Source: Chloroflexota bacterium (GTDB taxonomy: Bacteria; Chloroflexota; Anaerolineae; J102). Taken from it: a stretch of 36,722 nucleotides of DNA. The translations under genes were made by a program, and so were the position numbers. Shown piece by piece: positions 4,148 to 36,504 of this stretch. Location of the stretch: assembly GCA_013151415.1 (NCBI GenBank), contig JAADII010000135.1, forward strand, positions 1-36,722. Reading direction: 5' to 3'. Position 1 is the stretch's first letter. Every line of letters starts with the position of its first letter. The notes under the pieces were generated by a model, which ran no database searches, was not told where the DNA came from, and worked only from the letters and a program-made list of their open reading frames with translations.

Positions 4148-4211
4148 TCGCGCTTTTCTATTTGGCGCAGCCTTCTGGACGTTTCTCCAAGAGCTTCGCG
4201 CTTCCAATGCC

Positions 4212-12208: not shown

Positions 12209-12229
12209 ACCGCCATGCGCCATAACGCC

Positions 12230-13021: not shown

Positions 13022-13176
13022 TCGGCTATTAGCGCATAATTACCCTTTTTCTAAAAGCACTTGTAATATCTCTATTTCTGTTGTTTGTGTGCGTTATTTC
13101 GTTCTTGGTGCGCCAAATTGCGATATATTGATTTTTGTTCAAATCTCGATTTTTTAACGCTCTCGCTTCCACCCCC
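13022..13176. promoter_or_regulatory. AT-rich gap with a weak promoter candidate
   Basis: This 155-bp interval is much richer in A+T than its surroundings. A TATATT box at 13124-13129 has TTCTTG (13102-13107) 16 nt upstream, a weak -35 match, and could drive the flavoprotein genes. No gene is supported here. Confidence 0.35.
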
Positions 13177-15499: not shown

Positions 15500-15601
15500 C
15501 CATGCGCATGGTTGGAGGCTAGCGCGTATTGCGTATGCTTTCATCGGCGCGCGGCGTTTGCTGCGGCGGTGCAGGCAATGCGGAATACGCCATTTCGGAA
15601 C

Positions 15602-15895
15602 ATGTCACCCCATGCTTCTTCTCCTTCTCCATCCGCTCCCCGCGTGACGATCTTTGTCAACGGGGAGCCGGTCGCGGCTCATGAAGGCCAGTCGGTGGCC
15701 GCGGCCCTTTTGTCCGCGGGCCGGCGCATCTTCCGACGCACCCGGCTAGGCGCGGCCCGCGGACTCTTCTGTGGCATAGGCGTCTGTTACGACTGTCTGG
15801 TCACCATTGATGGCCTTCCCAACCGTCGCGCCTGCATGGCCTCGGTGCGCGAGGGCATGCGGGTGAAGATTGCCACAGCCAACCATGAACAGTGA
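15602..15895 (+). CDS. Small [2Fe-2S] subunit (HcnA/SoxA N-terminus-like)
   Basis: 97 residues with a Fer2_4 fold: a ubiquitin-like start (VTIFVNGEPVAAHEGQSVAAALL) and four cysteines C57, C62, C65 and C78 in CX4CX2CX12C. This is the pattern of HcnA, OoxX-like and sarcosine oxidase alpha N-terminal ferredoxin domains. It passes electrons between the flavin centres of the complex. I chose ATG 15602; in-frame ATG 15578 and TTG 15512 would add a non-conserved head. The stop codon lies inside a heptamer run and is 10 bp from the alpha subunit start, so the two proteins are surely partners. Confidence 0.9.
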   Translation: MSPHASSPSPSAPRVTIFVNGEPVAAHEGQSVAAALLSAGRRIFRRTRLGAARGLFCGIGVCYDCLVTIDGLPNRRACMASVREGMRVKIATANHEQ

Positions 15896-15911
15896 GCGCT
15901 GAATCGTGAAC
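15884..15911. repeat. Heptamer run at the [2Fe-2S]/alpha subunit junction
   Basis: Four units in phase: CATGAAC, AGTGAGC, GCTGAAT, CGTGAAC. The TGA stop of the upstream gene (15893-15895) and the GTG start of the downstream gene (15906-15908) both lie in the run. Confidence 0.6.
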
Positions 15912-17330: not shown

Positions 17331-17460
17331 AGGAATTCGACCATGATGTAAGGAAGCCGTCGCACGATCTTCATGAACATGGTCGCGTTCCATACGTTAT
17401 CCACCCAAATTCCAACCTCTCGTTCCAACCAAACCGACTCTCTCTCAGGAGGAGAACATC

Positions 17461-18882
17461 ATGAACCGTAAGCGGATCCTACTCACACTACTTGGCGTTC
17501 TGGCCTTGGTGTTCGTGGTGGCGGCTTGCGCTCAGCAACCGGCCGAACAACCAGCCGAGCAGCCGGCCGAACAGCCCGCGGAAAAGCCGGCCGAGCAACC
17601 CACCGAAGCGCCGGCTAAAGAAGTGGACTTCGTCACCTGGTATCAATATGACCAGAACAACGAAGACCCGAAGAGTGATGAGCGCGTCGGCAACCAATAC
17701 CTGCGCGACACCATCCCGCAGTTCAATGAGGCATTCGAAGGCAAGTGGAATTGGGTCAATCAGCCCAAAGCTTTCGACAAAATGACGGCTGAGTTGGTGG
17801 CCGCGGTGCAGGCCGGCGGCGATGTGCCCGACCTGTTCGAGATGAGCAACACTCAGGACATGGTTGATTTCTATCGTCATGGAACGGTCCAAGATCTGAC
17901 GGACTGGGCCATGGCGCAATCCTGGTGGAATGACCTGGACGCCAGCGCCATCGAAGCATGCAAAGGGCCGGACGGCAAGCTGTATTGCATTCCCATTTCC
18001 ATCCGTCCTCAGGTGGTCTATGTGTGGAGCGATCGCTTCCCCGATGGTTTTTCCAAGACTCCGGAAGCGTTCCTGGAAGATTCCGAACGCCTCAAGGCCG
18101 AAGGGTTGTATAGCATGACCTTCTTCGGCTCCACCGATAAAGGCGGCGAGGGTCTCACCCGCGCCATGTGGACCATCATCTCCTCGTATGGCGGTTCGCT
18201 GGATGACGGCCAAGGCAATATGAAGCTGGACTGGCCCGAGACCATCGAGGCCATTGAGTTCATTCGCCATATTGTCCAGCAGGGCTACATCCCCGAAATC
18301 GCTTTCGCGGGAGGTTTCCAGGAAGAGGAGGCTTTCAAAGATGCGTCGGCGGGCTCCTTCCCCACCGGTTTGTTCGGCTACCGCTATGTGAACCCGCTCA
18401 CCGCGCCCGATGGCACCAAGTATGACACGGGCTCGGCCGAAGACATGCTCAACGCCATTGCCGACGGCCAGGTGGTCATCACCCATTCTTTCGCTCCTGA
18501 AGGAAAGAAACCCGGCTGCGGCATCGATGTGGCGGGCTTCGTCATCCCTGTGGGAGCGAAGAACGTGGAGGCGGCCTATGATTACATCAACTGGATCATG
18601 AGCCCCGAGCAAAACCCGGCCTGGGTGCAAGGCCCCGGCGGCGGCTTCCCCGCGCTCAAGGCCACTCAAGAGCATGAGTTGTTCCAGACGCCTTTCTATA
18701 AGCAGGCGGCCGAGGCCGTGGGCGCCAGCGCTTGTCGCCCCTGGTTTGGTTCGCTCCAACGCCCCAACGAGGCGCAAGAGATGGTGATGCAGGTCATCTA
18801 CAAGCTGATCAAAGAAGACCCGACCCTCGACATCGCCACCGAGCTGCAGAAAGTGCAAGAGGAGTACAACGCCAACAATTAA
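17461..18882 (+). CDS. ABC importer substrate-binding lipoprotein 1 (CUT1 type)
   Basis: 473 residues. A basic start and hydrophobic core end in a lipobox (VVAAC) with C23 as lipidation site. Residues 27-50 are repeats of Pro-Ala-Glu-Gln/Lys forming a flexible tether. The rest has the extracellular solute-binding protein family 1 layout (FDKMTAELVAAVQAGGDVPDLFEM, then the MSPEQNPAWV segment). Such proteins deliver sugars, polyols or other small solutes to MalFG-like permeases. AGGAGG (17447-17452) is 8 nt before ATG 17461, the best ribosome site in the window. Two permease genes follow after a hairpin. The position behind the flavoprotein set suggests import of their substrate, which is an inference. 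Confidence 0.94.
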   Translation: MNRKRILLTLLGVLALVFVVAACAQQPAEQPAEQPAEQPAEKPAEQPTEAPAKEVDFVTWYQYDQNNEDPKSDERVGNQYLRDTIPQFNEAFEGKWNWVNQPKAFDKMTAELVAAVQAGGDVPDLFEMSNTQDMVDFYRHGTVQDLTDWAMAQSWWNDLDASAIEACKGPDGKLYCIPISIRPQVVYVWSDRFPDGFSKTPEAFLEDSERLKAEGLYSMTFFGSTDKGGEGLTRAMWTIISSYGGSLDDGQGNMKLDWPETIEAIEFIRHIVQQGYIPEIAFAGGFQEEEAFKDASAGSFPTGLFGYRYVNPLTAPDGTKYDTGSAEDMLNAIADGQVVITHSFAPEGKKPGCGIDVAGFVIPVGAKNVEAAYDYINWIMSPEQNPAWVQGPGGGFPALKATQEHELFQTPFYKQAAEAVGASACRPWFGSLQRPNEAQEMVMQVIYKLIKEDPTLDIATELQKVQEEYNANN

Positions 18883-18899
18883 GTTCATGGATGCCGTAA

Positions 18900-18934
18900 G
18901 AGATGGCGGGGCCGCGCCCCGTCCCCGCCATCTC
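18900..18934 (+). terminator. Strong hairpin between binding-protein and permease genes
   Basis: A perfect 12-bp GC-rich stem (18900-18911 with 18923-18934) and an 11-nt loop lie 18 nt after the binding-protein stop. No U-run follows, so it is more likely a transcript-stabilising or attenuating structure, as between malE and malF, than a full terminator. Confidence 0.6.
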
Positions 18935-18990
18935 GCTCCTCCCAGCCGAGACATGATTCATCACTTGCTCATACCACCGGAAAACTGCCC

Positions 18991-19944
18991 ATGACCCAAT
19001 CACAATCATCTTATTCACCATCAAAACCGCATCGCAAGCGCGATTGGTTGCCTTTTTGGTTGATTTTGCCCACCGTTGTTGTGTTATTGGCCATTCAGGT
19101 GTATCCCGCGTTGTATACGGTGTGGCTAAGCGTGCATGAGCGCAAACCGGCCGGCTGGACCTATGTGGGCGTGGATAATTTCAGGCGCCTGCTCAACATG
19201 GGCTTGTTCAAGGAAAGCATTGGTCACACCATCATTTTTTTGGTGGGCTACGCCAGCCTAACCATGCTCTTGGGCTTTATCGTGGCTATGCTGCTCAATC
19301 GCAAGATGCGGCTTTCAGGGTTTTACGTCACCTTGCTTTTCATTCCCTGGATCATCGCGGATTTGCTCACCGGCATTGTCTTTCGTCTGCTGGTGTTTCC
19401 CGATTACGGCATTTTTTCGGGCATCTTGCAAAATCCGGCCCTTTTCCCGCCCGATGGCATCTCCATTCTTACGGCGGCTCGACCCAAACCGTGGTTTGGC
19501 GATTTCCCCTTTCCGCCATCTCCGGCCATGATCTACCTGATTTTGGCCTCAGCCTGGCGCGCATTGCCCTTTATCACCCTCCTTCTCCTGGCCTCCATGC
19601 AGACCATTCCTCAAGAGGTTTTGGAAAGCAGCCGCATTGATGGCGCGAACGGATGGCAGATTGTTCGTCATATCATGATCCCGCTTATGCTGCCCACATT
19701 GGTGGTGGCGTTGTTCAGCCTTACGCTTAGCGGCATGAACGGCATTGGCATGGTGTTTAGTCTAACAGGCGGCGGTCCAGGCACATCCACCGAAGTGCTG
19801 AGCATGTTGCTTTACGCCATTGGTTGGCGGCAATTGTATTTTGGCCGGGCGGCCGCGCTGGCGTTGCTTATTGCCGTCATCAATTGGTTGCTTATTACAG
19901 GCACGCTGCGTTTCACCCGCTTACAAGAAAGGAGCATCTCATGA
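18991..19944 (+). CDS. ABC importer permease 1a (MalF/UgpA type)
   Basis: 317 residues with about six membrane helices, beginning near residue 22. The cytoplasmic EAA loop is present (SSRIDGANGWQIVRHIMIP, about 213-231), which docks to the ATPase. It forms the channel with the next gene product. The start is ATG 18991, with only a weak upstream purine tract. The stop overlaps the start of the partner permease in ATGA. No ATPase gene is in the window, so a shared MsmX/UgpC-like ATPase elsewhere must energise it, if it is functional. Confidence 0.94.
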   Translation: MTQSQSSYSPSKPHRKRDWLPFWLILPTVVVLLAIQVYPALYTVWLSVHERKPAGWTYVGVDNFRRLLNMGLFKESIGHTIIFLVGYASLTMLLGFIVAMLLNRKMRLSGFYVTLLFIPWIIADLLTGIVFRLLVFPDYGIFSGILQNPALFPPDGISILTAARPKPWFGDFPFPPSPAMIYLILASAWRALPFITLLLLASMQTIPQEVLESSRIDGANGWQIVRHIMIPLMLPTLVVALFSLTLSGMNGIGMVFSLTGGGPGTSTEVLSMLLYAIGWRQLYFGRAAALALLIAVINWLLITGTLRFTRLQERSIS

Positions 19945-20876
19945 CCACGACGAAATCGACGCGTAAGCGATGGGAAGGCATTGGGGTGAATCTCGCCATG
20001 CTCCTGGTGTTGGTCTTCGCGATGGTTCCGATTTTCACCACAGTGTTGATCTCGTTCAAAAGTGAGCAAGATATCATCCGCAAGCCGCCCAATATTTTCC
20101 CTTGCGACACGCCCGAAGGGTTCAAATGGAGCGAGTGTCGTTGGTCGGTGGAAGGGTATCAGCGCGTGCTTGCGCCCAAGCCATCTGAAACATCGCCCTT
20201 GGGCGTGGCCATCACCGGCAACATTCCTCGCATCTACATTCCCAATTCGGTGCTCTACGCCACTGCCACATCCTTGCTGGTCGTGTTCTTGGCCGGGCTT
20301 TCGGGCTATGCGTTCTCACGTTATCGTTTTCGGGGGCACGGTTTGCTCATGACCGGCATTCTGGCCATCACAGGGGTGCCGCTGCTCACCAACCTGTTGG
20401 CGTTGTATCAAATGGCCGCTACATTCCGGAAGGCCGATCTGCCGTTTTACGACGATCGCCTTTTCATCATCGCGGTTTACATGGGGTTTTATCTACCGCT
20501 CAGCGTGTGGATTGCCAAAGGGTTTTTCGACGCGATCCCGCGCGAGCTAGAGGAGGCCGCGCTCATCGACGGTTGCACGCCTGTAGGCGCTTTGCTACGC
20601 GTGACCATGCCGCTGGCGTTGCCTGGTCTGGCCGCGGTGTTTTTGCTCACTTTTGTCAGTGTTTGGAATGAGTTTATCGCCGGCTATCTGATCATCGCCA
20701 AGAATCAATACAAACCCGTGATGTTCGGGCTATATGATTTCTTGGGGCAAAACATCATCAATCTACAGGTCATTGCCGCCGCGTGCATCTTAATCGCCTC
20801 ACCCGTGGTTATTCTTTTCGTGTTCACGCGACGCAGCTTCTTCCGCGCCATGGTTGAGGGCGCGGTCAAAGGTTGA
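19941..20876 (+). CDS. ABC importer permease 1b (MalG/UgpE type)
   Basis: 311 residues with about six membrane helices and the EAA loop LEEAALIDGCTPVGALLRVTMP (about 205-226). AAAGGAG (19928-19934) is 6 nt before ATG 19941, which overlaps the upstream stop by 4 bp. A periplasmic insertion after the first helix (about 43-95, with two Cys in PCDTPEGFKWSECRW) is longer than in MalG and may be disulfide-bonded. It forms a heterodimer with permease 1a. The cyclodeaminase gene starts 4 bp after its stop and is therefore in the same operon. Confidence 0.94.
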   Translation: MTTTKSTRKRWEGIGVNLAMLLVLVFAMVPIFTTVLISFKSEQDIIRKPPNIFPCDTPEGFKWSECRWSVEGYQRVLAPKPSETSPLGVAITGNIPRIYIPNSVLYATATSLLVVFLAGLSGYAFSRYRFRGHGLLMTGILAITGVPLLTNLLALYQMAATFRKADLPFYDDRLFIIAVYMGFYLPLSVWIAKGFFDAIPRELEEAALIDGCTPVGALLRVTMPLALPGLAAVFLLTFVSVWNEFIAGYLIIAKNQYKPVMFGLYDFLGQNIINLQVIAAACILIASPVVILFVFTRRSFFRAMVEGAVKG

Positions 20877-24991: not shown

Positions 24992-26353
24992 ATGCGCAAC
25001 AAAACCACCTTTTTCAGCCTTGTGTTAATCATCGCTTTACTGGCGATGATGTTGGCCGCATGCGCGCCGGCCCAACCGGCCGAGCCGCCTGCGGAGCAAC
25101 CCCCGGCCGAGCCGCCGGCCCAGCAACCCACCGAAGCGCCCAAAGAGGAGCCGGCCGCGCCCGAAAAGCCCTTCGCCGGAACCGAGCTGGTGCTGGCGTC
25201 GATGACCGACCAATACGTCGCGGCTTTCCGCTACCTGATCCCCAAATTCGAAGAGGAAACCGGGATCAAGATCACGTTGGACGAGCTGGGCTATGTCGAT
25301 CTCTATCAGAAACTGACCGCGGATTTCGTCGGCCACACCGCGAATTATGATCTGATGACGGTCGACATTGTATGGTCGGGCGAGTACGCGCAAAACAAGT
25401 ACACGCTGCCTCTGGATGATTTCATGGAGCGCGATAAAGATGAATTGCAGCTCGATGATATCATGCCTGTGGCCTGGACTCTGGGCGAATGGGAAGGCCA
25501 ACACTGGGCCTATCCGCTGGCCGGGTATGCCAATGTGTTGAACTATCGCAAAGATGTGTTTGCGGACGCGGGTTTGGAGCCGCCCAAAACCCAAGAGGAG
25601 CTATTGGAATATGCCAAGATGCTGACCAAGCCGGAAGAGGATTTCTACGGAATCGCCCTGTTGGGTGCAAAGGGTCCTGCCGTGGCTCAAGACTACATGG
25701 TGTTTGTGCAGCAGCATGGCAGCAGCATTCTGGATGAGCAAGGCAATGTGGCCATCAATACGCCCAAGAATGTGGAAGTTTTGAAGTTCTTTGGCGAGCT
25801 CTTCAAGTATGCGCCGCCTGGCGCCACCGATTATTGGTGGGACCAGCGCGAAACCGCGTTCCGTTCGGGCAATGTGGCCATGATGGAGGGCTGGAGCATC
25901 GCCCGCGCGGGCTATGAAAATCCCGACATCTCCTCGGTTGTGGGCAAAGTGGATATCGCGCTCGCGCCTGTGGCCGAGGGCATGGAGCCAAAATATGGCT
26001 TCGGCGGTTGGGGCATTGGCATCAACGCGGATTCGGAAAACGCGGAGGCGGCCTGGGAGTTCATCAAGTGGCTCACCAGCCCCGAAGTGCAAAAGGATTG
26101 GATCCTGAACGACGGCGCGCCCATTCGCCGTAGCACGCTGGAGGACCCGGAACTCAATGAGAAATTCCCCTGGTTCCCGGTGTTGCTGGAATCCTTCGAG
26201 AAAGGCGATGGCGACTATCGGCCGCGCATTCCCGAATACAGCATCATTCAGGACGCGCTGGGCACCACTGTAAACGCTTACCTGGTGGGCGAGATGACCG
26301 CCGAGGAGGCGCTGGAGCAGGCCCAGGCCCAGGTCGAGGCCGCCCTGAAGTAA
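24992..26353 (+). CDS. ABC importer substrate-binding lipoprotein 2 (CUT1 type)
   Basis: 453 residues with a lipobox LAAC (C24 lipidated), then a Pro/Ala/Glu/Gln-rich tether to about residue 60. The extracellular solute-binding family 1 domain follows (YLIPKFEEETGIKI, MTVDIVWSGEYA, FGGWGIGINADSENAEAAWEFIKWLTSPE). The segment WDQRETAFRSGNVAMMEGWS is typical of sugar or polyol binders. GGAGG (24980-24984) is 7 nt before ATG 24992. It is only distantly similar to the binding protein at 17461, so the two importers probably take different solutes. The two following permeases complete the translocator; an ATPase is missing. Confidence 0.95.
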   Translation: MRNKTTFFSLVLIIALLAMMLAACAPAQPAEPPAEQPPAEPPAQQPTEAPKEEPAAPEKPFAGTELVLASMTDQYVAAFRYLIPKFEEETGIKITLDELGYVDLYQKLTADFVGHTANYDLMTVDIVWSGEYAQNKYTLPLDDFMERDKDELQLDDIMPVAWTLGEWEGQHWAYPLAGYANVLNYRKDVFADAGLEPPKTQEELLEYAKMLTKPEEDFYGIALLGAKGPAVAQDYMVFVQQHGSSILDEQGNVAINTPKNVEVLKFFGELFKYAPPGATDYWWDQRETAFRSGNVAMMEGWSIARAGYENPDISSVVGKVDIALAPVAEGMEPKYGFGGWGIGINADSENAEAAWEFIKWLTSPEVQKDWILNDGAPIRRSTLEDPELNEKFPWFPVLLESFEKGDGDYRPRIPEYSIIQDALGTTVNAYLVGEMTAEEALEQAQAQVEAALK

Positions 26354-26489: not shown

Positions 26490-27392
26490 ATGAGTCATTC
26501 CAAAACATTCTGGCGGCGGGCGACGTTTGTCGAGAAGCATTATCTTATGCTTCTATCCCCTTTGTTGATCTTCATCGTCGTCATCGCCATTTACCCGCTC
26601 TTCTTCTCGTTTTATATTAGCTTCTTCAAGTATCGGCTGACCGATCCCAACCAAACGCGGACGTTTCTGGGGTTGGCCAATTATATCAACGCGTTCAAAG
26701 ATCCCCAGGTGACGGGCGCCATCGCCAACACATTGATTTTTGTGGCGGGCACGGTCATTGTGGAGATCGCGCTGGGGTTGGGATTGGCTTTGCTCTTCGC
26801 GGCCGAATCGCGACGCACGCAAATGTTGCGCTCTTGGATGTTGATCCCCATGGCTTTGCCGCCCTTGGTGGTGGGGTTGGTGTGGAAGTCGTTATACAAT
26901 GTCGATTTTGGCGTCATTCCCTATTATCTCAAACAGTTGGGGCTGGATATGGGGCGCGGGCCGTTGGGCGAGCTGCAGTGGGCCATGCCCGCGGTTATTC
27001 TCATCGATGTGTGGCAATGGACGCCGCTGATTATGGTCATTTTTTTGGCCGGATTGAAAAGCCTGCCGCATGAACCTTATGAGGCCGCGCGCGTCGATGG
27101 CGCGACGCGGTGGCAGAGTTTTTGGTATATCACCCTGCCTATGCTCAAGCCCACGTTTTTGGTGGCTTTGCTTCTGCGCACCATGCAATCGTTCAAAGTG
27201 TTCGATATCATCTACGCGACCACGGGCGGCGGGCCGGGCAGCGCCACCACAGTGCTCAACTATCATATCTACACCGTGGGCATGGTCTTCTTTAAGATGG
27301 GCTACGCCGCGGCTTTGGCCAATATTTTGCTGATCATCGTCGCGGCCCTGGCCATCCTCTATATCATTGTGCTGGAAAGGCAACAGATATGA
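26490..27392 (+). CDS. ABC importer permease 2a (MalF/UgpA type)
   Basis: 300 residues with six predicted membrane helices and the EAA loop YEAARVDGATRWQSFWYITLP (about 200-220). It pairs with permease 2b to form the channel for binding protein 2. I chose ATG 26490 because the earlier in-frame starts (TTG 26427, ATG 26457) lie in the palindromic repeat and would encode a non-conserved head. No clear Shine-Dalgarno is present. Its stop overlaps the next start in ATGA. Confidence 0.94.
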   Translation: MSHSKTFWRRATFVEKHYLMLLSPLLIFIVVIAIYPLFFSFYISFFKYRLTDPNQTRTFLGLANYINAFKDPQVTGAIANTLIFVAGTVIVEIALGLGLALLFAAESRRTQMLRSWMLIPMALPPLVVGLVWKSLYNVDFGVIPYYLKQLGLDMGRGPLGELQWAMPAVILIDVWQWTPLIMVIFLAGLKSLPHEPYEAARVDGATRWQSFWYITLPMLKPTFLVALLLRTMQSFKVFDIIYATTGGGPGSATTVLNYHIYTVGMVFFKMGYAAALANILLIIVAALAILYIIVLERQQI

Positions 27393-28216
27393 CCCCATCC
27401 CGCACCGAACGAATCATTCGCGTTGCGCTCATGGCCCTGGCCATGTTCTTCTTCATGCTGCCCATTTTTTGGTTGATGACCACGGCCTTCAAGTTTGGCC
27501 GCGAGGCGTTTGCCATCCCGCCCAAATGGATTTTCTTCGATTGGACGCTGAAAAATTTCCAGGAGGTGCTGGCCAATTCCAAAACGCCCCGCTACATCAT
27601 GAACAGCATCATTGTCTCGGCCGGCGCGACCACGTTTTCTCTGCTTCTCGGCGTTCCGGCCGGATACGCCATCGCCCGCAGCCGCTCCCCGCTCATCAAC
27701 TCCTCCTCCTATTTCTTCTTGCTTCTGCTCATGATCCCGCCCATTGCCATGCTTATTCCCTTCTATCTGGTCATGCGGGATTTGCATTTGCTGGGCACTT
27801 ACGCCGCGCTCATCACCCTCGACACCGTGTTCGACGCCGCGTTTGTGGTGTGGATGATGCGCAGTTATTTCATGGATGTGCCGCAAGAGATGGAGGAGGC
27901 CGCACTGGTGGATGGCGCGTCCCCCTTGCAGGCTTTCACCAAGATCGCTTTGCCTCTTTCCGTTCCGGGCATTGTGGCTTCGGCCCTCTATTGCATCATT
28001 TTTTCCTGGAACGACTTTCTCTTCGCGCTCATGCTCACTTCGCCCAAGACCAAGACCATCCCTTTGGGCATTTTGGCCAGCTTCAGCGCGGTGGAGATCA
28101 GTTGGGGCCGTATGGCCGTCATGTCCATCTTCGCCATTATTCCCGCGCTTATCATCGCCCTGTTCCTCAACCGTTACTTTGTTCAGGGTCTCACTATGGG
28201 CGCGGCAAAAGGCTAA
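27389..28216 (+). CDS. ABC importer permease 2b (MalG/UgpE type)
   Basis: 275 residues, six helices, the normal length for MalG-like subunits. The EAA loop is EEAALVDGASPLQAFTKIALP (about 169-189). The ATG overlaps the upstream stop by 4 bp, so translation is coupled. The C-terminus ends VQGLTMGAAKG, the usual family ending. A heptamer run follows directly after the stop, then the Zn-alcohol dehydrogenase gene 81 bp downstream. Confidence 0.95.
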   Translation: MTPSRTERIIRVALMALAMFFFMLPIFWLMTTAFKFGREAFAIPPKWIFFDWTLKNFQEVLANSKTPRYIMNSIIVSAGATTFSLLLGVPAGYAIARSRSPLINSSSYFFLLLLMIPPIAMLIPFYLVMRDLHLLGTYAALITLDTVFDAAFVVWMMRSYFMDVPQEMEEAALVDGASPLQAFTKIALPLSVPGIVASALYCIIFSWNDFLFALMLTSPKTKTIPLGILASFSAVEISWGRMAVMSIFAIIPALIIALFLNRYFVQGLTMGAAKG

Positions 28217-28297: not shown

Positions 28298-29323
28298 ATG
28301 AAAAAACAACTCATGCGCCAGATGTGGTGCGAAAAACCCGGCCAGCTAGAACTGCGTTACAACCCCATCTTTGAAGTGGGCGACGATGATGTGCTGGTCA
28401 AGGTTGCGTACACGGGCATTTGCCCCTGGGATGTGCGCGCGTTCTCGGGCAAATCATCGGTGGCTTTCCCGCGCGTGCTTGGCCACGAAACATCCGGCCA
28501 TGTGGCCGCGGTGGGAAAGAACGTGACCCATGTTCAGGTGGGGCAACCGGTGGTCGCGGATTTCATCGTCAAGTGCGGCGTGTGCCGGGCCTGCCGGAGA
28601 GGGCGTCCCAATCGTTGTCAAAACCCCACTTACCAACAATTTGGCGGCGGCTATGCCGACTATGTCCGTCTGCCCGCCAAAAATATCTACCCGCTCAAGC
28701 CGGAAACGAGCCTGAAGGCCGCGGCCTTTATGGAGCCGTTGGCCTGTGTTTGGCGGGGTCAGCGGATGCTGCAATTGCAGCCTGGTGATGTGGCTTTGGT
28801 TGTGGGCGTAGGGCCTATTGGGCTCATGCACGCGCAGGTCGCGCGTCGCTTTGGCGCTCGGGTCATTGCCTCGGATGTGCTGCCCGAACGTTTGCAAAAA
28901 GCGCGCGAACTAGGCGCAGACTGGGTGGTCAATCCCCAAGAAACCGATCTCAAAACATTCGTGCAAGAAATCACCGAGGGCTGGGGTTTGGACGCCGCGG
29001 TGGTCGCGGTTGGCTCCGCGCGGTTGGTGGAGCAAACGCTGACATTGCTCGCCCCCGGCGGACGGCTGAACATCTTCGCAGGCGTTTACCCGCGCGATGA
29101 ATTGCGCATCGATCCCAACCTTATCCATTATGGCGAATACGTGCTCACCGGTTCGGCCGACAGCGCGCCCGAGGACATGCAGCGCGCGTTGGATCTCATC
29201 GAAGGCGGTCTGGTGAACACCGAAAGTCTCATCAGCCATGTGTTGCCCCTGGAGGAGCTAGGCCGCGGTTTCGAGCTGGTCAAGCATCGCGAAGGTCTCA
29301 AAATCATGATCGAGGTGGCATGA
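28298..29323 (+). CDS. Zn-dependent medium-chain alcohol/polyol dehydrogenase
   Basis: 341 residues of the MDR superfamily (sorbitol/threonine dehydrogenase-like). Catalytic zinc ligands are C42, H63 and E64 (GHETSG), with E146 in MEPLAC. The structural zinc lobe has C93, C96, C99 and C107. GVGPIG (170-175) binds NAD(P), and D191 after beta-2 (ASDVLPER) favours NAD. It oxidises a secondary alcohol, most likely a polyol, to a ketone. ATG 28298 is chosen; ATG 28313 is a shorter alternative. The FGGY kinase starts directly after its TGA, and a DhnA-type aldolase follows, so the three probably act in sequence on a sugar alcohol brought in by importer 2. Confidence 0.93.
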   Translation: MKKQLMRQMWCEKPGQLELRYNPIFEVGDDDVLVKVAYTGICPWDVRAFSGKSSVAFPRVLGHETSGHVAAVGKNVTHVQVGQPVVADFIVKCGVCRACRRGRPNRCQNPTYQQFGGGYADYVRLPAKNIYPLKPETSLKAAAFMEPLACVWRGQRMLQLQPGDVALVVGVGPIGLMHAQVARRFGARVIASDVLPERLQKARELGADWVVNPQETDLKTFVQEITEGWGLDAAVVAVGSARLVEQTLTLLAPGGRLNIFAGVYPRDELRIDPNLIHYGEYVLTGSADSAPEDMQRALDLIEGGLVNTESLISHVLPLEELGRGFELVKHREGLKIMIEVA

Positions 29324-30808
29324 GTGGCGTCTGCTGCATCGCATCCCTACGTGATGGCCATCGACGCGGGCACATCCGCTCTGAAGGCGGTGTTGTTCGA
29401 TGCGAGAGGCCGCGTGTTGGCCAGGGCCGAGCGACGGCTTCATCATCGCTCACCGCGTCCGGGTTGGGCCGAGGCCGATCCCGAAGATTGGTGGCGCGCG
29501 CTGGTCAGGGTTGTGGCCGAGCTACGCGAAAAAGGACACCTTTTGAAACATGTAGCGGCGCTGGGGCTCACCGGACAAATGCACGCCGCGGTGCTGCTGG
29601 ACGAACGCGCCCATCCGGTCCGTCCGGCCATCCTGTGGCTCGACCGTCGCGCCGAAAGCGAGACCGACGAGTTGCAAGCTCGTCTGGGCCTTCCTCCTTA
29701 CCAGCTCAATTCGACTTACACTTTGCCCAAATTATTGTGGCTGAAACGTCACGAACCCGAAGCCTTGGCTCGCACCTACACCTTGCTTTGGCCCAAGGAT
29801 TATCTTCGGCATCGTCTGGCCCCTGCTCGCGTGACCGATATGACCGAGGCCGCAGGCGCCGGTTTGCTCGATTGGACGCGCCGCGAGTGGTCTCGCGAAC
29901 GTTTGACTTTGGTGGGCCTTTCCGCTCATGTGCTACCCAAACTGCGAACGCCTTCAGACATCGTAGGCCCCATACGCCCCGATGCGGCCAGGCGATTAGG
30001 CTTGAGCTCTTTGGTGAGGATTATTGTGGGAGCCGGCGATGTCATTGCTTTGCTGGGCGCGGCGCCGCCGCAAGCGGGTCGGCTCACCTGTTCGCTTGGC
30101 AGCTCGGCCATGCTCGCCCTGCCTCTCGCTCCGGGTCAGACGATCGTCGATCCCGCCCATCGTCTCTATATCTACCCCTTCCTTGTCCGACCACTTCTCA
30201 ATGGCGTCCTTTCCAACGGCGGCGCCGCCCTGATGTGGATTTCTCGCACCCTTTTTGGCCAGGATACGCCTTTGGCCGTCGCTGTGCAGGCCGGGCTTGC
30301 CACTCTGCCCGGTGCAGAATCGCTGCTCTTTCTTCCGTTTCTGGCAGGAGAGCGTTGCCCCTATTGGAACGACCGCCTGCGCGGCGGGTTCTATGGTCTG
30401 ACGGCCTCGCACACGCGAGGGCACATGGTGCGCGCAGTCATGGAAGGAGTGGCGTTCAGCGTGCGACGATTGGTGGAAATAGCCGAAGAATTGGGCGCCA
30501 CCGTGCGCGAGATCGCTCTGGCGGGCGGCGGAGCCGCTGTGGACGGTTGGCCGCAGATATTCGCGGATGTTTGTCAACGCCCTGTGCTCCGCTTCACGAC
30601 CACGGACACGGTGACGCGCCCGCTCTTCGCCTATTGTATGACCGCTCTGGATGCAAACGTCACCTTTGATGCCGCGTTGACCGCCACTTTCACCAACCCA
30701 CCCACCTATCTCGAGCCTCGTATTCACATGGCCCCAATCTATGACGCACTTTATCATCGACACCGTCGCATGGCGGATTTTCTGAATGAAATGGAGCGAG
30801 GGACTTGA
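29324..30808 (+). CDS. FGGY-family carbohydrate kinase (xylulokinase-like)
   Basis: 494 residues, two actin-like domains. D14 in AIDAGTSALKAV is the phosphate-binding loop, GQMH (84-87) is the xylulokinase-type sugar contact, and D239 in GAGDV is the catalytic base position. ALAGGGAAVDGWPQI near residue 403 is the adenosine motif. It phosphorylates a ketose or polyol at a terminal hydroxyl. The GDV instead of GDN at the catalytic loop is unusual for xylulokinases, so the sugar may differ. Start GTG 29324 immediately follows the dehydrogenase stop; ATG 29354 is possible but would cut close to the phosphate loop. Confidence 0.9.
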   Translation: MASAASHPYVMAIDAGTSALKAVLFDARGRVLARAERRLHHRSPRPGWAEADPEDWWRALVRVVAELREKGHLLKHVAALGLTGQMHAAVLLDERAHPVRPAILWLDRRAESETDELQARLGLPPYQLNSTYTLPKLLWLKRHEPEALARTYTLLWPKDYLRHRLAPARVTDMTEAAGAGLLDWTRREWSRERLTLVGLSAHVLPKLRTPSDIVGPIRPDAARRLGLSSLVRIIVGAGDVIALLGAAPPQAGRLTCSLGSSAMLALPLAPGQTIVDPAHRLYIYPFLVRPLLNGVLSNGGAALMWISRTLFGQDTPLAVAVQAGLATLPGAESLLFLPFLAGERCPYWNDRLRGGFYGLTASHTRGHMVRAVMEGVAFSVRRLVEIAEELGATVREIALAGGGAAVDGWPQIFADVCQRPVLRFTTTDTVTRPLFAYCMTALDANVTFDAALTATFTNPPTYLEPRIHMAPIYDALYHRHRRMADFLNEMERGT

Positions 30809-30858
30809 GCCGCGTTGATTGTTCCATGCTTCATCATAGCGCAGAGGAGCCATACAAT

Positions 30859-31608
30859 ATGATTGGAAAACAAAGACGCTTGAATCGCCTCTTTGTAGGC
30901 GAACAAAAACGTTGTTTGCTTAGCCCGTTGGATCATGGCGGCTGGTTAGGCCCGGTAAAGGGCATCGACAGGCCGCGTGAGATTGTGCAAAAGGTCATTG
31001 CCGGCGGAGCCAACGCTTTGCTCATTTCCCCTGGCTTTTATCGCTCAGTGGCCGATGTGGTTCCGCCGTCCGTAGGCGTCGTATTACGCCTGAGCCTCAC
31101 CGCGGGACTGAGCCAACAAGGAACTCAAGAAACGCCTATCGCTTCCCTGGAAACCGCGTTGGCCCTGGATGCGGACGCGGTCGCGGTTTCGGTTTTCTTT
31201 GGCCGCGATGGCGATATCGACATCTATCGCTGGTTGGCGCAGCTCATCGACGCGGCCCGGCCCTACGACATGCCGGTGGTGGCCGAGATGATGCCGCCCG
31301 GCGATCGCTATTATCAACCCGAAGCCATCGCCCACGCCGCGCGCATTGGCATGGAAATCGGCGCGGATGTGATCAAAACCAACTATTCGGGCGATGTCGA
31401 GTCTTTCAGGCAAATTACTGCTTCGGTTTCCGTTCCCATCATCGTGGCCGGCGGCCCCAGCAAAGGCGATGATAGCAGCACCGTGGATATGGTGCGCGGG
31501 GCCGTGGCCGGAGGCGCGGCCGGCGTGGCCATTGGCCGTCGCGTTTGGCAATCTCCGGATCCGCAGGCCGTCACCCGACAAATTTGGGGAGCTTTGCATA
31601 AACTTTGA
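30859..31608 (+). CDS. DhnA/LsrF-type class I aldolase
   Basis: 249 residues forming a TIM barrel of the DeoC/FbaB/LsrF family. D25 in LSPLDHG and the Schiff-base lysine K173 in GADVIKTNY are the catalytic residues, and AGGPSK (about 205-210) plus GVAIGR bind the phosphate. Relatives include archaeal-type fructose-1,6-bisphosphate aldolase, the AI-2 thiolase LsrF and the sulfofructose-1-phosphate aldolase YihT. GAGGAG (30844-30849) 9 nt before ATG 30859 decides the start. It follows the FGGY kinase by 50 bp, which suggests cleavage of the kinase product to DHAP and an aldehyde. The precise substrate is unknown. Confidence 0.9.
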   Translation: MIGKQRRLNRLFVGEQKRCLLSPLDHGGWLGPVKGIDRPREIVQKVIAGGANALLISPGFYRSVADVVPPSVGVVLRLSLTAGLSQQGTQETPIASLETALALDADAVAVSVFFGRDGDIDIYRWLAQLIDAARPYDMPVVAEMMPPGDRYYQPEAIAHAARIGMEIGADVIKTNYSGDVESFRQITASVSVPIIVAGGPSKGDDSSTVDMVRGAVAGGAAGVAIGRRVWQSPDPQAVTRQIWGALHKL

Positions 31609-31822: not shown

Positions 31823-33145
31823 ATGCCTTCACAGATCATCCTTCCCGACTGGCTTATCATCACCCCGCACGAACCGCCTAAAGCGAACTGGGGCGCGCGC
31901 GTGGTCGGCGACCGCATCGACGCGGTCGGCCCCAACGCGGAATTGCAAAGCGCGTATCCCGACGACGATGTCATCGACGCGTCCGGCCATGTGCTCGCGC
32001 CCGGCTTTGTCAACGCGCACACCCATCTTTACGGCGTGCTCGCTCATGGCATCCCCCTGGATAAAGCGCCCTCCGATTTTTGGGCCTTCCTGGCCGATTT
32101 TTGGTGGCCGTTGGTGGAGGACGCGCTCGACCATGAAATGATCTGCGCGGCCACCGACTGGGCCTGCATCGAGATGCTGCGCAGCGGCGTCACCGGATTT
32201 TACGATTGCCTGGAGGCGCCTTACGCCATCCCCGACGCGCTCCTGGCTCAAAAGGAGGTGGTGGACCGCCGCGGCCTGCGCGGCATTCTTTCCTTCGAGG
32301 CCACCGAGCGGGTGAGCAAGGCCAACGGGCAGTTGGGTTTGCAAGAGAACGCCCGCTTCATCGACCATTGTCGCCAAGAGGGCGGCCTGGTTCAGGGGCT
32401 AATGTGTTTTCACACCACGTTCACCTGCTCGGCCGGATTCATCCAACAGGCGTTCGAGATGGCGGCCGAACGAGATGTTCTCACCCACATGCATTGTAAT
32501 GAGGGCGTGCACGAACCGAACTACGCGCTGGAGCATTTCGGCATGCGCACGCTGGAATATTACGAACAACTCGGCGTCACCGGCCCGCATATGCTGGCTT
32601 CGCAATGCGTGCAGCTTTCCGAACGCGAGCGCGCCATCATTGCCGAGCGCGGGATCAAAGTGACGCACATGCCCCTGAGCAATTGTGAGGTGGGCGGCGG
32701 CATCGCGCCCGTGCCCGAACAACTGGCCGCGGGCGTCACCCTGGGCCTGGGGTCGGATGGCTACATCAACGATTTCTTCGAGGTGATGCGCGGCGCGTTT
32801 CTCATCCACAAGGCGCACCATCAAAACCCGCAAGTGATGCCCGCGCATGAAGTCTGGCATTTGGCCACCGAGGGCGGCGCGCGGGCGCTGGGCTGGGAAA
32901 AGGTGGGGCGCATCGAACCGGGATGGGCCGCAGATCTGCAGATTATTCGCGCGGATTTGCCCACGCCCCTGGCCGAGCACAATCTCTATGAGCAGTTGTT
33001 GCTTTGGCGAAACCACGCGCATGTGCGCGATGTGATGGTCGCGGGCCGCTGGCGCGTGCGCGACCACGCGGTTTTGGATGCCGACATCCCCGCCATCCGC
33101 GCGCGCGTGCATGAAAACGCCCACCGCATGTGGGCGAAGGCGTAG
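31823..33145 (+). CDS. SsnA-like amidohydrolase with altered catalytic His
   Basis: 440 residues, same superfamily as the protein at 22698. Metal ligands H66 and H68 (NAHTH), H222/H224 with E227 (HMHCNE) and D312 (GSDGY) are present. GSDGYINDFFEV resembles SsnA-type proteins. At the strand-6 site, where the relatives have a catalytic His (AHC or VHS; H262 in the paralogue), this protein has Q261 (ASQCVQL). It may therefore hydrolyse a different group or have low deaminase activity. ATG 31823 has no strong Shine-Dalgarno; the repeat element ends just upstream. The E1 dehydrogenase genes begin 46 bp downstream and are probably co-transcribed. Confidence 0.9.
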   Translation: MPSQIILPDWLIITPHEPPKANWGARVVGDRIDAVGPNAELQSAYPDDDVIDASGHVLAPGFVNAHTHLYGVLAHGIPLDKAPSDFWAFLADFWWPLVEDALDHEMICAATDWACIEMLRSGVTGFYDCLEAPYAIPDALLAQKEVVDRRGLRGILSFEATERVSKANGQLGLQENARFIDHCRQEGGLVQGLMCFHTTFTCSAGFIQQAFEMAAERDVLTHMHCNEGVHEPNYALEHFGMRTLEYYEQLGVTGPHMLASQCVQLSERERAIIAERGIKVTHMPLSNCEVGGGIAPVPEQLAAGVTLGLGSDGYINDFFEVMRGAFLIHKAHHQNPQVMPAHEVWHLATEGGARALGWEKVGRIEPGWAADLQIIRADLPTPLAEHNLYEQLLLWRNHAHVRDVMVAGRWRVRDHAVLDADIPAIRARVHENAHRMWAKA

Positions 33146-33191
33146 ACATTGCGTAGCCTCCGTTTCAATGTTCAAGAGGCCGGTGACTTTC

Positions 33192-34187
33192 ATGACTTCT
33201 CTTAAACATCACCCTCTCGACCAACTCCTCGCGTTCTACCGGCTCATGGTGACGATCCGCGAGTTCGAGCTGCGCGCGGCCGGCGAGCGCAAGGCCGGTT
33301 TGGTTCCGGGGTTTTTGCATGCTTGCGTGGGGCAAGAGGCGACCGCGGTGGGCGCGTGCGCGGCCCTGAACGCGGAGGATGTCATCACCAGCACCCATCG
33401 CGGGCATGGGCATCTCATCGCCAAAGGCGGCGACCCGCGCTTTATGATGGCCGAGCTGGCGGGCAAGACCAGCGGTTATTGCGGCGGCAAGGGCGGGAGT
33501 CTGCACCTGGCCGACTTCGATCTGGGCGTCCTGGGCGCAAACGGCATCGTCGCGGGCGGGATCCCCATGGCCGTGGGCGCGGGGCTGGCCTTTCAGATGC
33601 GTCGCGAGCCGCGGGTGGCGCTGGCCTTTTTCGGCGACGGCGCGGTGAACGAGGGCGCGTTTCACGAGGCCGCGAATCTGGCCGGATTGTGGAAGTTGCC
33701 GGTGATATTCTTTTGCGAGAACAATCTCTACGGCGAGGGCACGCCCCAACACAAGCAAGCGCCCATTCGCGATTTGTCGTTGCGCGCGGCGGGTTATGGC
33801 TTTCCGGGCGTGATCGTGGATGGCAACGATGTCGTGGCCGTGTACGAGATCACCCTGGACGCGGTCGAACGGGCGCGAAAGGGGGATGGCCCCACGTTCA
33901 TCGAGGCCAAAACCTACCGTCAGCGCGGCCACTATGAAGGCGATCCCATGATCTATCGCACCGAAGAGGAGATGGCCTATTGGCGGGCGCGCGACCCCAT
34001 CCTCGGTTTTAGAAAACGGTTGGAGGAGGAAATGGAGGTGGAGCCGGCCGCGTTGGACGCGGTCGATGCGGAGGTGAAAGCTCTGCTCGATGAGGCCGTG
34101 CAGTTCGCCATCCACAGCCCCGCGCCGCGGCCCGAAGCCGCTCTCGAGGGCGTTTATGCCGATGATCACGGCGGGAGGGTGTTCTGA
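33192..34187 (+). CDS. Thiamine-diphosphate-dependent dehydrogenase E1 alpha (AcoA/PdhA-like)
   Basis: 331 residues. The thiamine-diphosphate motif GDG (148-150) to NN (177-178) is intact, HRGHGH (69-74) supplies active-site His residues, and GGKGGSLH (98-105) is typical of the alpha subunit. The C-terminal RGHYEGDP segment fits acetoin and pyruvate dehydrogenase E1 alpha. It decarboxylates a 2-oxo acid or cleaves acetoin and passes the acyl or acetaldehyde unit on. ATG 33192 is chosen; ATG 33168 would add eight residues. Its stop overlaps the beta subunit start by one base. No E2 or E3 gene follows, which is unusual for this pair. Confidence 0.93.
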   Translation: MTSLKHHPLDQLLAFYRLMVTIREFELRAAGERKAGLVPGFLHACVGQEATAVGACAALNAEDVITSTHRGHGHLIAKGGDPRFMMAELAGKTSGYCGGKGGSLHLADFDLGVLGANGIVAGGIPMAVGAGLAFQMRREPRVALAFFGDGAVNEGAFHEAANLAGLWKLPVIFFCENNLYGEGTPQHKQAPIRDLSLRAAGYGFPGVIVDGNDVVAVYEITLDAVERARKGDGPTFIEAKTYRQRGHYEGDPMIYRTEEEMAYWRARDPILGFRKRLEEEMEVEPAALDAVDAEVKALLDEAVQFAIHSPAPRPEAALEGVYADDHGGRVF

Positions 34188-35173
34188 TGAAGCGCGAGAT
34201 CACGTTTGCTCAGGCCATCAACGAGGCCATGGCCGAAGAAATGCGCCGCGATCCGTCCGTGTTTCTCATGGGCGAGGATGTAGGCGTGTTTGGCGGCGTA
34301 TTCGGCGTGTCGGAAGGGTTGCTGGCCGAGTTTGGCGAGGAGCGGGTGCGCGACACGCCCATCTCTGAAGCGGCCATCGTGGGCGCGGGTTTGGGCGCGG
34401 CCCTGGTGGGCATGAGGCCCATCGTTGAGATCATGTTCGCGGATTTCGTCACCGTGGCCATGGATCAGGTGGTGAATCAAGTCGCGAAGGCGCGCTACAT
34501 GAGCGGCGGCAAGGCGCGCGTTCCTCTGACCATCCGCATTGCCAACGGCGCGCCGGGCGCGGCCGCGGCCCAACATTCGCAAAGCCCCGAAGCCTGGTTT
34601 ATGAATGTCCCCGGCCTGAAGATCGCCATCCCCTCCACGCCGGCCGACGCCAAGGGCTTGCTAAAAACGGCCATCCGCGGGGATGATCCGGTGCTCTTTT
34701 TCGAGCATAAGATGCTCTATAGCCGCGCCGGCTCGGCGCCGGAGGGGGAATATCTCATCCCCTTTGGTCGGGCCGCGGTGCGCCGCGAGGGCGAAGACGC
34801 GACCATCATCGCCATAGGCGGGCCGGTGAACGCGGCTCTGAGCGCGGCCGAGCAATTGGCGCGACAAAGCGTCTCGGTCGAGGTCATCGATCCCCGAACC
34901 CTGGTTCCCCTCGACCTGGACGCATTGATTGCTTCGGTGCGGAAGACCGGTCGCGCGGTCATCGTGCACGAAGCGCATCGACGCGCGGGGCCGGGCGCGG
35001 AAATCGCGGCCTTGCTGGCCGAAAAGGCCATCGATTACCTCGAAGCTCCCATCCTGCGCGTGGCCGCGGCCAATGTCCCCATCCCCTACAATCCCGACCT
35101 CGAACGCTTCGTCCTCCCCACCGCGGAGGATATTGTGGAGGCCGTCATGAAATTGATTCGTTACGAAATATAG
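34187..35173 (+). CDS. Thiamine-diphosphate-dependent dehydrogenase E1 beta (AcoB/PdhB-like)
   Basis: 328 residues, full-length transketolase pyrimidine-binding plus C-terminal domain. Visible family segments are ITFAQAINEAM, VFLMGEDVGVFGG (about 25-37), with the activating Glu, AAIVGAGLGAALVGMRPIVEIMFADF, and EVIDPRTLVPLD in the C-terminal domain. It forms an alpha2-beta2 heterotetramer with the preceding gene product; start and stop overlap in TGATG. The gene run ends here: no lipoyl acyltransferase follows, and the next gene is on the other strand. Confidence 0.94.
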   Translation: MKREITFAQAINEAMAEEMRRDPSVFLMGEDVGVFGGVFGVSEGLLAEFGEERVRDTPISEAAIVGAGLGAALVGMRPIVEIMFADFVTVAMDQVVNQVAKARYMSGGKARVPLTIRIANGAPGAAAAQHSQSPEAWFMNVPGLKIAIPSTPADAKGLLKTAIRGDDPVLFFEHKMLYSRAGSAPEGEYLIPFGRAAVRREGEDATIIAIGGPVNAALSAAEQLARQSVSVEVIDPRTLVPLDLDALIASVRKTGRAVIVHEAHRRAGPGAEIAALLAEKAIDYLEAPILRVAAANVPIPYNPDLERFVLPTAEDIVEAVMKLIRYEI

Positions 35174-35191
35174 CGCGCGGTGGATGCACGC

Positions 35192-35428
35192 TTATGCAGC
35201 TTCGAGCACGCGAGCGTGGAGGATTTCGTTTCGGCCCATCGGTCGGATGTCGCGTTCGGTCAACGTCACCAAGGCCACGGTGCGTCCGCCGCCTTCGACA
35301 AATTCCACCTCATAAGCGCGCTTGTCTCGATAAACATGAACGATGGCGCCAATATCTCCACGTTTCAGGCCGTGTTCCGGGATGTCATGTAGGAGGATGA
35401 CGGTATCGAGTTCGTTCTTTGTGTTCAT
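35192..35428 (-). CDS. DUF4926 small protein
   Basis: 78 residues. The sequence (LDTVILLHDIPEHGLKRGD, GAIVHVY, YEVEFV, VALVTL, DIRP) matches the DUF4926 pattern, a small beta-rich, KOW/SH3-like fold of unknown function found in many bacteria. ATG 35428 gives the usual family start; a GTG at 35479 would add 17 basic residues. It lies antisense between the E1 beta and carbamoyltransferase genes, with a CTAAAC/GTTTAG inverted repeat in its upstream region. Such genes are often paired with another small gene as possible toxin-antitoxin-like modules, but no partner is visible here. Confidence 0.82.
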   Translation of the reverse strand: MNTKNELDTVILLHDIPEHGLKRGDIGAIVHVYRDKRAYEVEFVEGGGRTVALVTLTERDIRPMGRNEILHARVLEAA

Positions 35429-35445
35429 TGGTTGTTTCTTTTTTG

Positions 35446-35470
35446 CTAAACTGACTTTGATTTGTTTAGT
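35446..35470. promoter_or_regulatory. Inverted repeat in the divergent DUF4926/carbamoyltransferase gap
   Basis: CTAAAC and its inverse GTTTAG are separated by about 13 nt in the 83-bp gap between the two divergent genes. The position is right for an operator, but no regulator is known. No convincing promoter was found on either strand. Confidence 0.35.
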
Positions 35471-35511
35471 CTCATTCACCCAATCTTCTTTCTGTTGGAG
35501 GCGCGTTATCC

Positions 35512-36504
35512 ATGAACACCAAACTCTTCCAAAAAGACTTCATCACCACCCAGGATTGGTCGGTGGAAGACCTGAACACCATGCTGGACGTGGCCTATCG
35601 CTTGAAAGCGGATTTCGCGACGGGCGTCCCTCATGACCACATTTTGCGGGCCAAAACCCTCTACATGCTTTTTTTCGAGGAAAGCACGCGCACGCGCAAC
35701 TCCTTCGAGACCGGCATGACGCAACTGGGCGGGCACGCGGTCTATCTCACGCCCAAGGCCACGCAGATCGGGCATGGCGAAAACGCCAAAGATACGGGCA
35801 TTGTACTCAGCAGCTATGGGCATGGCATCGCGATTCGCGATTGCCGCACCAACATCGGCCAAAAATATCTTTACGAAATGGCGAAATGGGCCGACGCGCC
35901 CATCTTCAGCATGCAAGACGACGTGGATCATCCCTGTCAGGCCATGGCCGACCTGATGACGCTGACCGAGCTGTTCGGTCGCAATTTGCGGGGCGCGAAG
36001 TTCGTCATTTCCTGGACTTACGCGCCCAAATATGTGCGACCTCTCAGCGTGCCGCAGTCGCTGATCATGCTCATGCCCCGCTTTGGCATGGACGTGACCC
36101 TGGCCTATCCTGAGGGCTATCAGCTTATGCCCCACATCATGGACATCGCGCGCAAAAACGCGGAGGAAACGGGCGTCAAGTTCGAGGTGGTGCACGACAT
36201 GGACGCCGCGTTCGAGGGCGCGGATTTCCTCTATCCCAAATCCTGGGGTCCGATCATGGTCACGGAAGAGGAGGCCGAGGTGGAGGCCATGGCCGCGCAG
36301 CACAAAGACTGGCGCGTGACGACCGAGCGCATGAAGCTGGCCAAGAAACACGCGGTCTATATGCATTGCATGCCCATCGACCGCGGCCACGAGGCCGACG
36401 ACGAGGTTATCGACGGCCCGCAGTCGATCATCTACAAGCAGGCCGAGAACCGCCTCCATGTGCAAAAAGCGCTCATGGCCCTGACCATGGCTGGGCGCGC
36501 ATGA
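35512..36504 (+). CDS. YgeW-type carbamoyltransferase (OTCase family)
   Basis: 330 residues. The carbamoyl-phosphate site is intact: S58-T-R-T-R62, H140-P-C-Q143 and H285-C-M-P288. The N-terminal part resembles ornithine carbamoyltransferase, but the middle (SWTYAPKYVRPLSVPQ, RFGMDVTLAYPEGY, LYPKSWGP, AQHKDW) matches YgeW and other knotted carbamoyltransferases. The ornithine-binding D-x-x-x-SMG loop of OTCase is replaced by YPKSWG, so ornithine is an unlikely substrate. YgeW-like genes lie in purine-catabolic clusters with SsnA-like amidohydrolases, as here. The ribosome site GGAG (35497-35500) is 11 nt before ATG 35512. The second substrate is open. Confidence 0.9.
   Translation: MNTKLFQKDFITTQDWSVEDLNTMLDVAYRLKADFATGVPHDHILRAKTLYMLFFEESTRTRNSFETGMTQLGGHAVYLTPKATQIGHGENAKDTGIVLSSYGHGIAIRDCRTNIGQKYLYEMAKWADAPIFSMQDDVDHPCQAMADLMTLTELFGRNLRGAKFVISWTYAPKYVRPLSVPQSLIMLMPRFGMDVTLAYPEGYQLMPHIMDIARKNAEETGVKFEVVHDMDAAFEGADFLYPKSWGPIMVTEEEAEVEAMAAQHKDWRVTTERMKLAKKHAVYMHCMPIDRGHEADDEVIDGPQSIIYKQAENRLHVQKALMALTMAGRA

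Follow-up and report, generated by a model that had tools for sequence, protein, structure and literature searches.

A conserved importer, dehydrogenase, FGGY kinase and DhnA-type aldolase module in Anaerolineae as a candidate operon for pentitol catabolism

Contig JAADII010000135.1 of an uncultured Anaerolineae genome (Chloroflexota bacterium, assembly GCA_013151415.1), whose 36,722 nucleotides we refer to as the window, carries six genes between positions 24992 and 31608 that we consider here as a candidate catabolic operon (Table 1). Coordinates are window positions on the plus strand. The solute-binding protein (SBP) and two permeases of a CUT1 importer precede three complete open reading frames (ORFs), which encode, in order, a medium-chain dehydrogenase/reductase (MDR; 341 residues), an FGGY-family kinase (494 residues) and a DhnA-type aldolase (249 residues). 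The kinase gene starts with GTG directly after the MDR stop, and the aldolase gene with ATG, 50 bases past the kinase stop. An earlier note on this DNA had placed three such enzymes behind a CUT1 importer and proposed that they oxidize, phosphorylate and cleave a polyol in that order. ORF calls and Pfam matches confirm the genes and their position; the interpretation, as set out below, is partly supported. None of the three enzymes reached a curated equivalog cut-off in NCBIfam.

Table 1. Genes of the importer and enzyme module, with the evidence for each assignment
Feature	Position	Strand	Evidence
CUT1 solute-binding lipoprotein, homologue of ribitol-bound 5iai	24992..26353	+	SBP_bac_1 165 bits; 393 bits and 190/390 identical to 5iai_A
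CUT1 permease 1	26490..27392	+	ORF; orthologues 68–85% identical adjoining SBP in about 20 loci
CUT1 permease 2	27389..28216	+	ORF; orthologues 71–85% identical
Zinc MDR dehydrogenase, probable NAD-dependent polyol/pentitol dehydrogenase	28298..29323	+	Pfam; conserved zinc ligands and D193
FGGY sugar kinase, XylB-like, probable pentulose (1-)kinase	29324..30808	+	FGGY_N/C; XylB 333 bits; conserved QMH and D239
DhnA/LsrF-type class I aldolase, probable ketose-1-phosphate (ribulose-1-phosphate) aldolase	30859..31608	+	DeoC/LacD; AF2 matches; conserved residues

A family-level search found the complete module, from SBP through both permeases to MDR, FGGY and DhnA, in other genera at 54–86% identity, and the gene set is kept together in about 30 genomes. 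Among 84,980 named species genomes there were 31 close loci, mostly in metagenome-assembled genomes of Anaerolineae and other Chloroflexota; three lie in Clostridia, with Ca. Formimonas warabiya DCMF among them. FGGY stands directly upstream of DhnA, on the same strand, in 33 of 34 aldolase loci (the window counted in), and MDR precedes FGGY in 27 of those 33. At the exception (L082/L043) FGGY has been lost, yet the same genome holds a second FGGY–DhnA pair (L046/L098). The SBP, MDR and FGGY stay together in L053 and L136, though the nearby aldolase there belongs to another DhnA subgroup (the L136 FGGY runs off its contig), and in L135 the transporter alone is kept. Across 298 genomes of the class, the SBP occurs in 10, the aldolase in 11 and both in 7 (Fisher p about 1e-9, a nominal value given that the genomes are related). 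Distance correlations of 0.65 for FGGY–DhnA, 0.94 for MDR–DhnA and 0.38 for SBP–FGGY are a weak test of co-evolution, as shared ancestry is still in them. DhnA matches from Streptomyces and Rhizobium plasmids (32–34%) lie in unrelated biosynthetic or PfkB contexts. By the co-occurrence counts, the gene arrangement is far beyond chance; the objection foreseen in the earlier note, that orthologues might never co-occur, is contradicted in Anaerolineae, their relatives and Clostridia alike.

The MDR matched the Pfam domains ADH_N (102 bits) and ADH_zinc_N (97 bits) far over the cut-offs. Residues that in this family bind the catalytic zinc (C42, H63, E64 and E146) or, as cysteines, the structural zinc (C93, C96, C99 and C107) are kept in 29 orthologues, as is D193, the aspartate for NAD. 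By family assignment the protein is a zinc enzyme of polyol/threonine dehydrogenase type, and its conserved D193 suggests NAD as the cofactor. The former label, sorbitol-dehydrogenase-like, thus holds only loosely; no curated model called the protein a sorbitol dehydrogenase, and the models that come nearest are those of threonine dehydrogenase and IolM, the best NCBIfam match (185 bits, where the cut-off is 450).

In the kinase, the FGGY fold domains (FGGY_N, 191 bits; FGGY_C, 89 bits) and the catalytic aspartate are present. Its score on the XylB model TIGR01312 was 333.4 bits, below the cut-off of 380.25, and on the LsrK model 126 bits against 528. Residues Q85-M86-H87 and D239 are kept in 33–34 of the 34 orthologues. 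The catalytic D239 is followed by V240, so that the motif reads GDV, as had been remarked before; since valine is found here in 31 of the 34 orthologues (Met in two, Ile in one), GDV is a mark of the clade and no oddity of this one genome.

The aldolase is a member of the DeoC/LacD family (PF01791, 136.7 bits against a Pfam gathering cut-off of 23.8). By alignment columns, K173, D25, H26, G198-G199 and G226-R227 correspond to Lys203, Asp57, His58, Gly226-227 and Gly253-Arg254 of LsrF, which include its Schiff-base lysine, base and phosphate site (PMC2728841). Lys173 and Gly226-Arg227 are present in all aldolase rows and Asp25 in all but one; His26 and Gly198-Gly199 are also conserved. The residues expected of a class I (Schiff-base) DhnA-type enzyme are all found: lysine on strand 6, aspartate on strand 1, and the phosphate-binding GG and GR. 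The signature of archaeal fructose-bisphosphate aldolase (FBPA) and ADH synthase is not: their strand 5 tyrosine, present in the archaeal rows and in MJ0400, is Met or Ile at position 145 in all group-A orthologues. Two residues before that column, Glu143 occurs in all bacterial rows except LsrF, and the column of LsrF Asp251 holds an alanine, A224. The T. tenax sequence in the tree described below is chain 1w8s, which we take to carry engineered changes at residues 144 and 146; the Glu and Phe that it shows in the columns of Glu143 and the tyrosine are therefore not to be read as wild type.

Curated models for related activities were all missed, both those for ADH synthase (TIGR01949, 204.6 against 299.45 bits; PRK07226, 227.1 against 241) and that for the LsrF thiolase (PRK08227, 150.9 against 297). 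When an AlphaFold2 (AF2) model of the aldolase built from 32 sequences (pLDDT 90) was compared with solved folds, ADH synthase came first (Z 36), ahead of FBPA and LsrF (both Z 32); the aldolases for sulfohexulose-1-phosphate, SFP and tagatose bisphosphate followed at a Z of about 25. By sequence as well as fold, the closest solved relative is the ADH synthase MJ0400 (181 bits, 37% identity). A midpoint-rooted tree with three references joins the FGGY-associated bacterial DhnA enzymes to LsrF (support 1.0) and keeps them separate from the archaeal ADH synthase and FBPA. The earlier remark that this aldolase type is not the usual partner of xylulokinases stands as far as XylB is concerned; the pairing of FGGY with DhnA as such was already known from LsrK and LsrF.

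A pointer to the substrate comes from the SBP, which is 48.7% identical to PDB chain 5iai_A over 390 residues (393 bits). The next solved chain scored 144 bits, 250 less, and the sorbitol-binding protein 4rya 103 bits. Structure 5IAI is ribitol-bound, at 1.6 Å, and has been used in conformational studies of ribitol (PMC8468352). For the SBP, AF2 run on the single sequence gave only a poor model (pLDDT 38). The closeness of the SBP to a ribitol complex makes a ribitol-type pentitol the best-supported candidate substrate and strengthens the earlier suggestion that pentitols might be used.

We propose, with moderate confidence, that the six genes make up an operon for the catabolism of a ribitol-type pentitol, which would be degraded via a ketose-1-phosphate to dihydroxyacetone phosphate (DHAP) and glycolaldehyde. 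The CUT1 transporter would bring the polyol in, and the zinc MDR would use NAD+ to oxidize a secondary alcohol, giving a 2-ketopentitol (D-ribulose, if ribitol is the substrate). The FGGY kinase would then phosphorylate C1, the primary alcohol adjoining the ketone. In the aldolase, Lys173 would form a Schiff base with the ketone while Arg227 and the two Gly-Gly/Gly-Arg loops grip the phosphate; cleavage between C3 and C4, with Asp25 as the base, would release DHAP and glycolaldehyde. Glu143 probably takes on carbinolamine dehydration, the task of the tyrosine in archaeal FBPA and ADH synthase. The DhnA fold places its phosphate site next to the Schiff-base carbonyl (PMC2728841), and a phosphate one carbon from that carbonyl would make the 1-phosphate the cleavable form, and so DHAP and glycolaldehyde the expected products. 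The order of oxidation, phosphorylation and aldol cleavage put forward in the earlier note agrees both with the conservation of the active sites and with the co-occurrence of the genes, and as an overall scheme we consider it likely. Genes that could handle glycolaldehyde adjoin the module elsewhere: an aldehyde dehydrogenase in L094 and L095, an iron-dependent alcohol dehydrogenase with an aldehyde ferredoxin oxidoreductase in L090–L092, and a GlcD/GlcF-like oxidase in nine loci. In the cluster of the window itself there are likewise an iron-dependent alcohol dehydrogenase (9569–10714) and an aldehyde dehydrogenase (10718–12208), both named by eye and similarity only. If the proposal is right, it would add a pentitol route around the pentose phosphate pathway, give a function to a clade of class I aldolases that current annotation calls ADH synthase or FBP aldolase, and tie a defined substrate class to operons common to many uncultured Anaerolineae and Ca. 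Formimonas warabiya.

Several observations weigh against this proposal. The ribitol bound to 5iai could stem from ligand screening and need not be the natural ligand, and rhizobial homologues of the 5iai-type SBP sit among amidohydrolases, isochorismatases and an allophanate hydrolase. In 14 group-I loci a deaminase-superfamily amidohydrolase (nearest model PRK07213, 268–278 bits against 294) lies inside the module, between permease and MDR; the breakdown of a plain pentitol has no use for such an enzyme. Sister loci carry quite different importers. CUT1 is replaced in two Clostridia loci (L096 and L101) by a system that looks, by sequence, like an energy-coupling factor (ECF) transporter, whose small membrane subunit had no family match and no solved relative naming a ligand, and in L091–L092 by a polyamine/pyridoxal phosphate (PLP)-type importer; the CUT1 SBP of group II is nearest MalE3-like proteins, not 5iai. 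Group-II loci further hold a DadD-like amidohydrolase (in most), GlcD/GlcF-like proteins and a homologue of FTR (formylmethanofuran:H4MPT formyltransferase), to which those of Anaerolineae add MttB, MtmB, corrinoid proteins and an AcsE/MtrH-type methyltransferase. Lastly, XylB-like FGGY kinases usually phosphorylate the far end of their substrate, giving a 5-phosphate, and the kinase retains the XylB QMH motif. The genome encodes ribulose-phosphate epimerase and transketolase, so a 5-phosphate would also be usable.

Much of this would suit the main rival, in which the same enzymes act on a larger substrate, a 1-substituted 1-deoxyribitol; ribityl compounds of this kind include flavins, deazaflavins, lumazines and amino-ribitols. 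The substrate would be oxidized at C4', phosphorylated at C5' and split by the aldolase into DHAP and R-CH2-CHO, so that R loses its side chain. The amidohydrolases of group I, group II and the rhizobial loci, the isochorismatase and allophanate hydrolase beside the latter, the ECF-type and polyamine/PLP-type importers, and the MttB, MtmB, corrinoid and FTR proteins are unneeded for a plain pentitol and would be needed for such a compound, and we keep this rival for that reason. It is nonetheless unlikely: the window's own module has no gene acting on a heterocycle and no amidohydrolase between permease and MDR, and ribitol itself fits the solved SBP homologue. In a wider form, which we also doubt, the module would clip ribityl side chains in general, converting R-CH2-(CHOH)3-CH2OH to DHAP and R-CH2-CHO. 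Here R would be a heterocycle or methylated amine (from a flavin, deazaflavin, lumazine, remains of a methanopterin-type cofactor or amino-ribitol) that the neighbouring genes process through deaminase-type amidohydrolases, ECF/polyamine-type importers, the FTR homologue and methylamine methyltransferases. If true, anaerobes would have a side-chain removal route of a new kind and, with it, a means of feeding on cofactor debris.

Improbable, too, is a classical pentitol route, in which the kinase supplies the pentose phosphate pathway with a pentulose-5-phosphate and the aldolase has some other task. The XylB score near its cut-off (333 against 380 bits), the QMH motif and the genomic epimerase and transketolase would all agree with it, and Klebsiella-type ribitol loci do pair ribitol dehydrogenase with D-ribulokinase (PMC12307932). 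The aldolase, however, is retained beside the kinase in 33 of 34 loci, which argues that it is not a spare enzyme. Two further readings were rejected on curated scores and residues. Processing of an autoinducer-2 (AI-2)-like, dihydroxypentanedione-type signal is very improbable: LsrK and LsrF are the only known FGGY–DhnA pair and the bacterial DhnA rows cluster with LsrF, but the scores on both Lsr models are far too low, Asp251 of LsrF is replaced by alanine, and the module includes a dehydrogenase and imports through CUT1 instead of an Lsr-type system. Least credible of all is a biosynthetic ADH synthase (for an archaeal-type aromatic precursor) or gluconeogenic FBP aldolase; MJ0400 is the best solved relative and PRK07226 was narrowly missed, but both ADH-synthase scores fall short, the tyrosine is Met/Ile and the operon has a catabolic transporter.

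The related loci hold further features. L090–L092 (about 11100–20700) have a second FGGY–DhnA pair directly after the first, 25–31% identical to that of the window and accompanied by a short-chain dehydrogenase/reductase (SDR), an oxo-tetronate-isomerase-like protein, a HAD phosphatase, the iron-dependent alcohol dehydrogenase and the aldehyde ferredoxin oxidoreductase. A third DhnA subgroup (L053 9606–12658; L042 2790–6476; L047 2813–6486, in the window's own genome, C175) adjoins a 2-hydroxyacid dehydrogenase and a protein resembling 5'-nucleotidase by sequence; in the window's genome it lies near adenosine-deaminase-like and nucleoside-transporter-like genes. On Rhizobium plasmids, SBP homologues (L119, L122 and L124) stand with FGGY, a BtpA/SgcQ TIM barrel, an SDR and an FAD oxidoreductase besides the amidohydrolases, isochorismatases and allophanate hydrolase already mentioned, a candidate locus for degradation of N-heterocycles or ribityl compounds. 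Beside FGGY–DhnA in L075 (12418–13833, minus strand) is a homologue of the monomethylamine methyltransferase MtmB (PF05369), 471 residues long with no in-frame stop; it and its orthologues in L097, L102 and L103 apparently lack the amber/pyrrolysine codon usual for MtmB. The bacterial FTR homologue (L096 15761–16630; L101 10732–11616; L075 4030–4911) scores under the curated cut-off and is kept beside sister modules of Clostridia and Anaerolineae. L096 also encodes (2984–4816) a possible methyl-corrinoid sensor, in which a corrinoid-binding domain is joined to a PocR sensory domain and a histidine kinase; a response regulator gene comes next.

Elsewhere in the window, an opine-oxidase-like set (13180–17330; two DAO-type FAD oxidases, a 2Fe-2S protein and an HcnB-like FAD protein) lies ahead of a second CUT1 transporter (17461–20876). 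Downstream of the module, a block at 31823–36504 that is kept in related genomes (L052) comprises an SsnA-like amidohydrolase, an E1 alpha/beta dehydrogenase pair and an ornithine/putrescine/YgeW-like carbamoyltransferase, the last under all curated cut-offs.

Searches of open-licence papers found no description of this operon or of an FGGY–DhnA polyol pathway, nor of Arad_9887/EFI-510945 or a bacterial class I ribulose-1-phosphate aldolase. By curated models the module is outside XylB, LsrF, LsrK and ADH synthase. Its predicted chemistry is known in pieces, from a haloarchaeal class II ribulose-1-phosphate aldolase and from LsrK with LsrF, and a DhnA-type aldolase for such sugars appears not to have been described before. 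Like the module, LsrK/LsrF combines an FGGY kinase with a DhnA-fold enzyme, sets the phosphate beside the carbonyl that meets the Schiff-base lysine and yields DHAP; unlike it, the system has no polyol dehydrogenase and ends in a thiolase-type step, and neither its curated models nor its Asp251 are matched here. MJ0400 shares the fold, Schiff-base lysine and phosphate site, but it is biosynthetic, and its tyrosine and methionine columns are Met145 and Glu143 in the window's enzyme. In RhaB–RhaD and FucK–FucA, an FGGY kinase makes a ketose-1-phosphate that an aldolase splits to DHAP and an aldehyde, as proposed here; these systems use class II metal aldolases, deoxyhexuloses and an isomerase in place of the dehydrogenase. 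The predicted key cleavage, of ribulose-1-phosphate to DHAP and glycolaldehyde, is found in the non-carboxylating pentose bisphosphate pathway of haloarchaea, although there ribulose-1-phosphate arises from ribose-1,5-bisphosphate with a phosphatase and the aldolase is a zinc-dependent FucA-type class II enzyme (PMC9700705). The ribitol and D-arabitol loci of Klebsiella likewise convert a pentitol to a pentulose and then use an FGGY ribulokinase, but they form the 5-phosphate, send it to the pentose phosphate pathway and do so with no aldolase.

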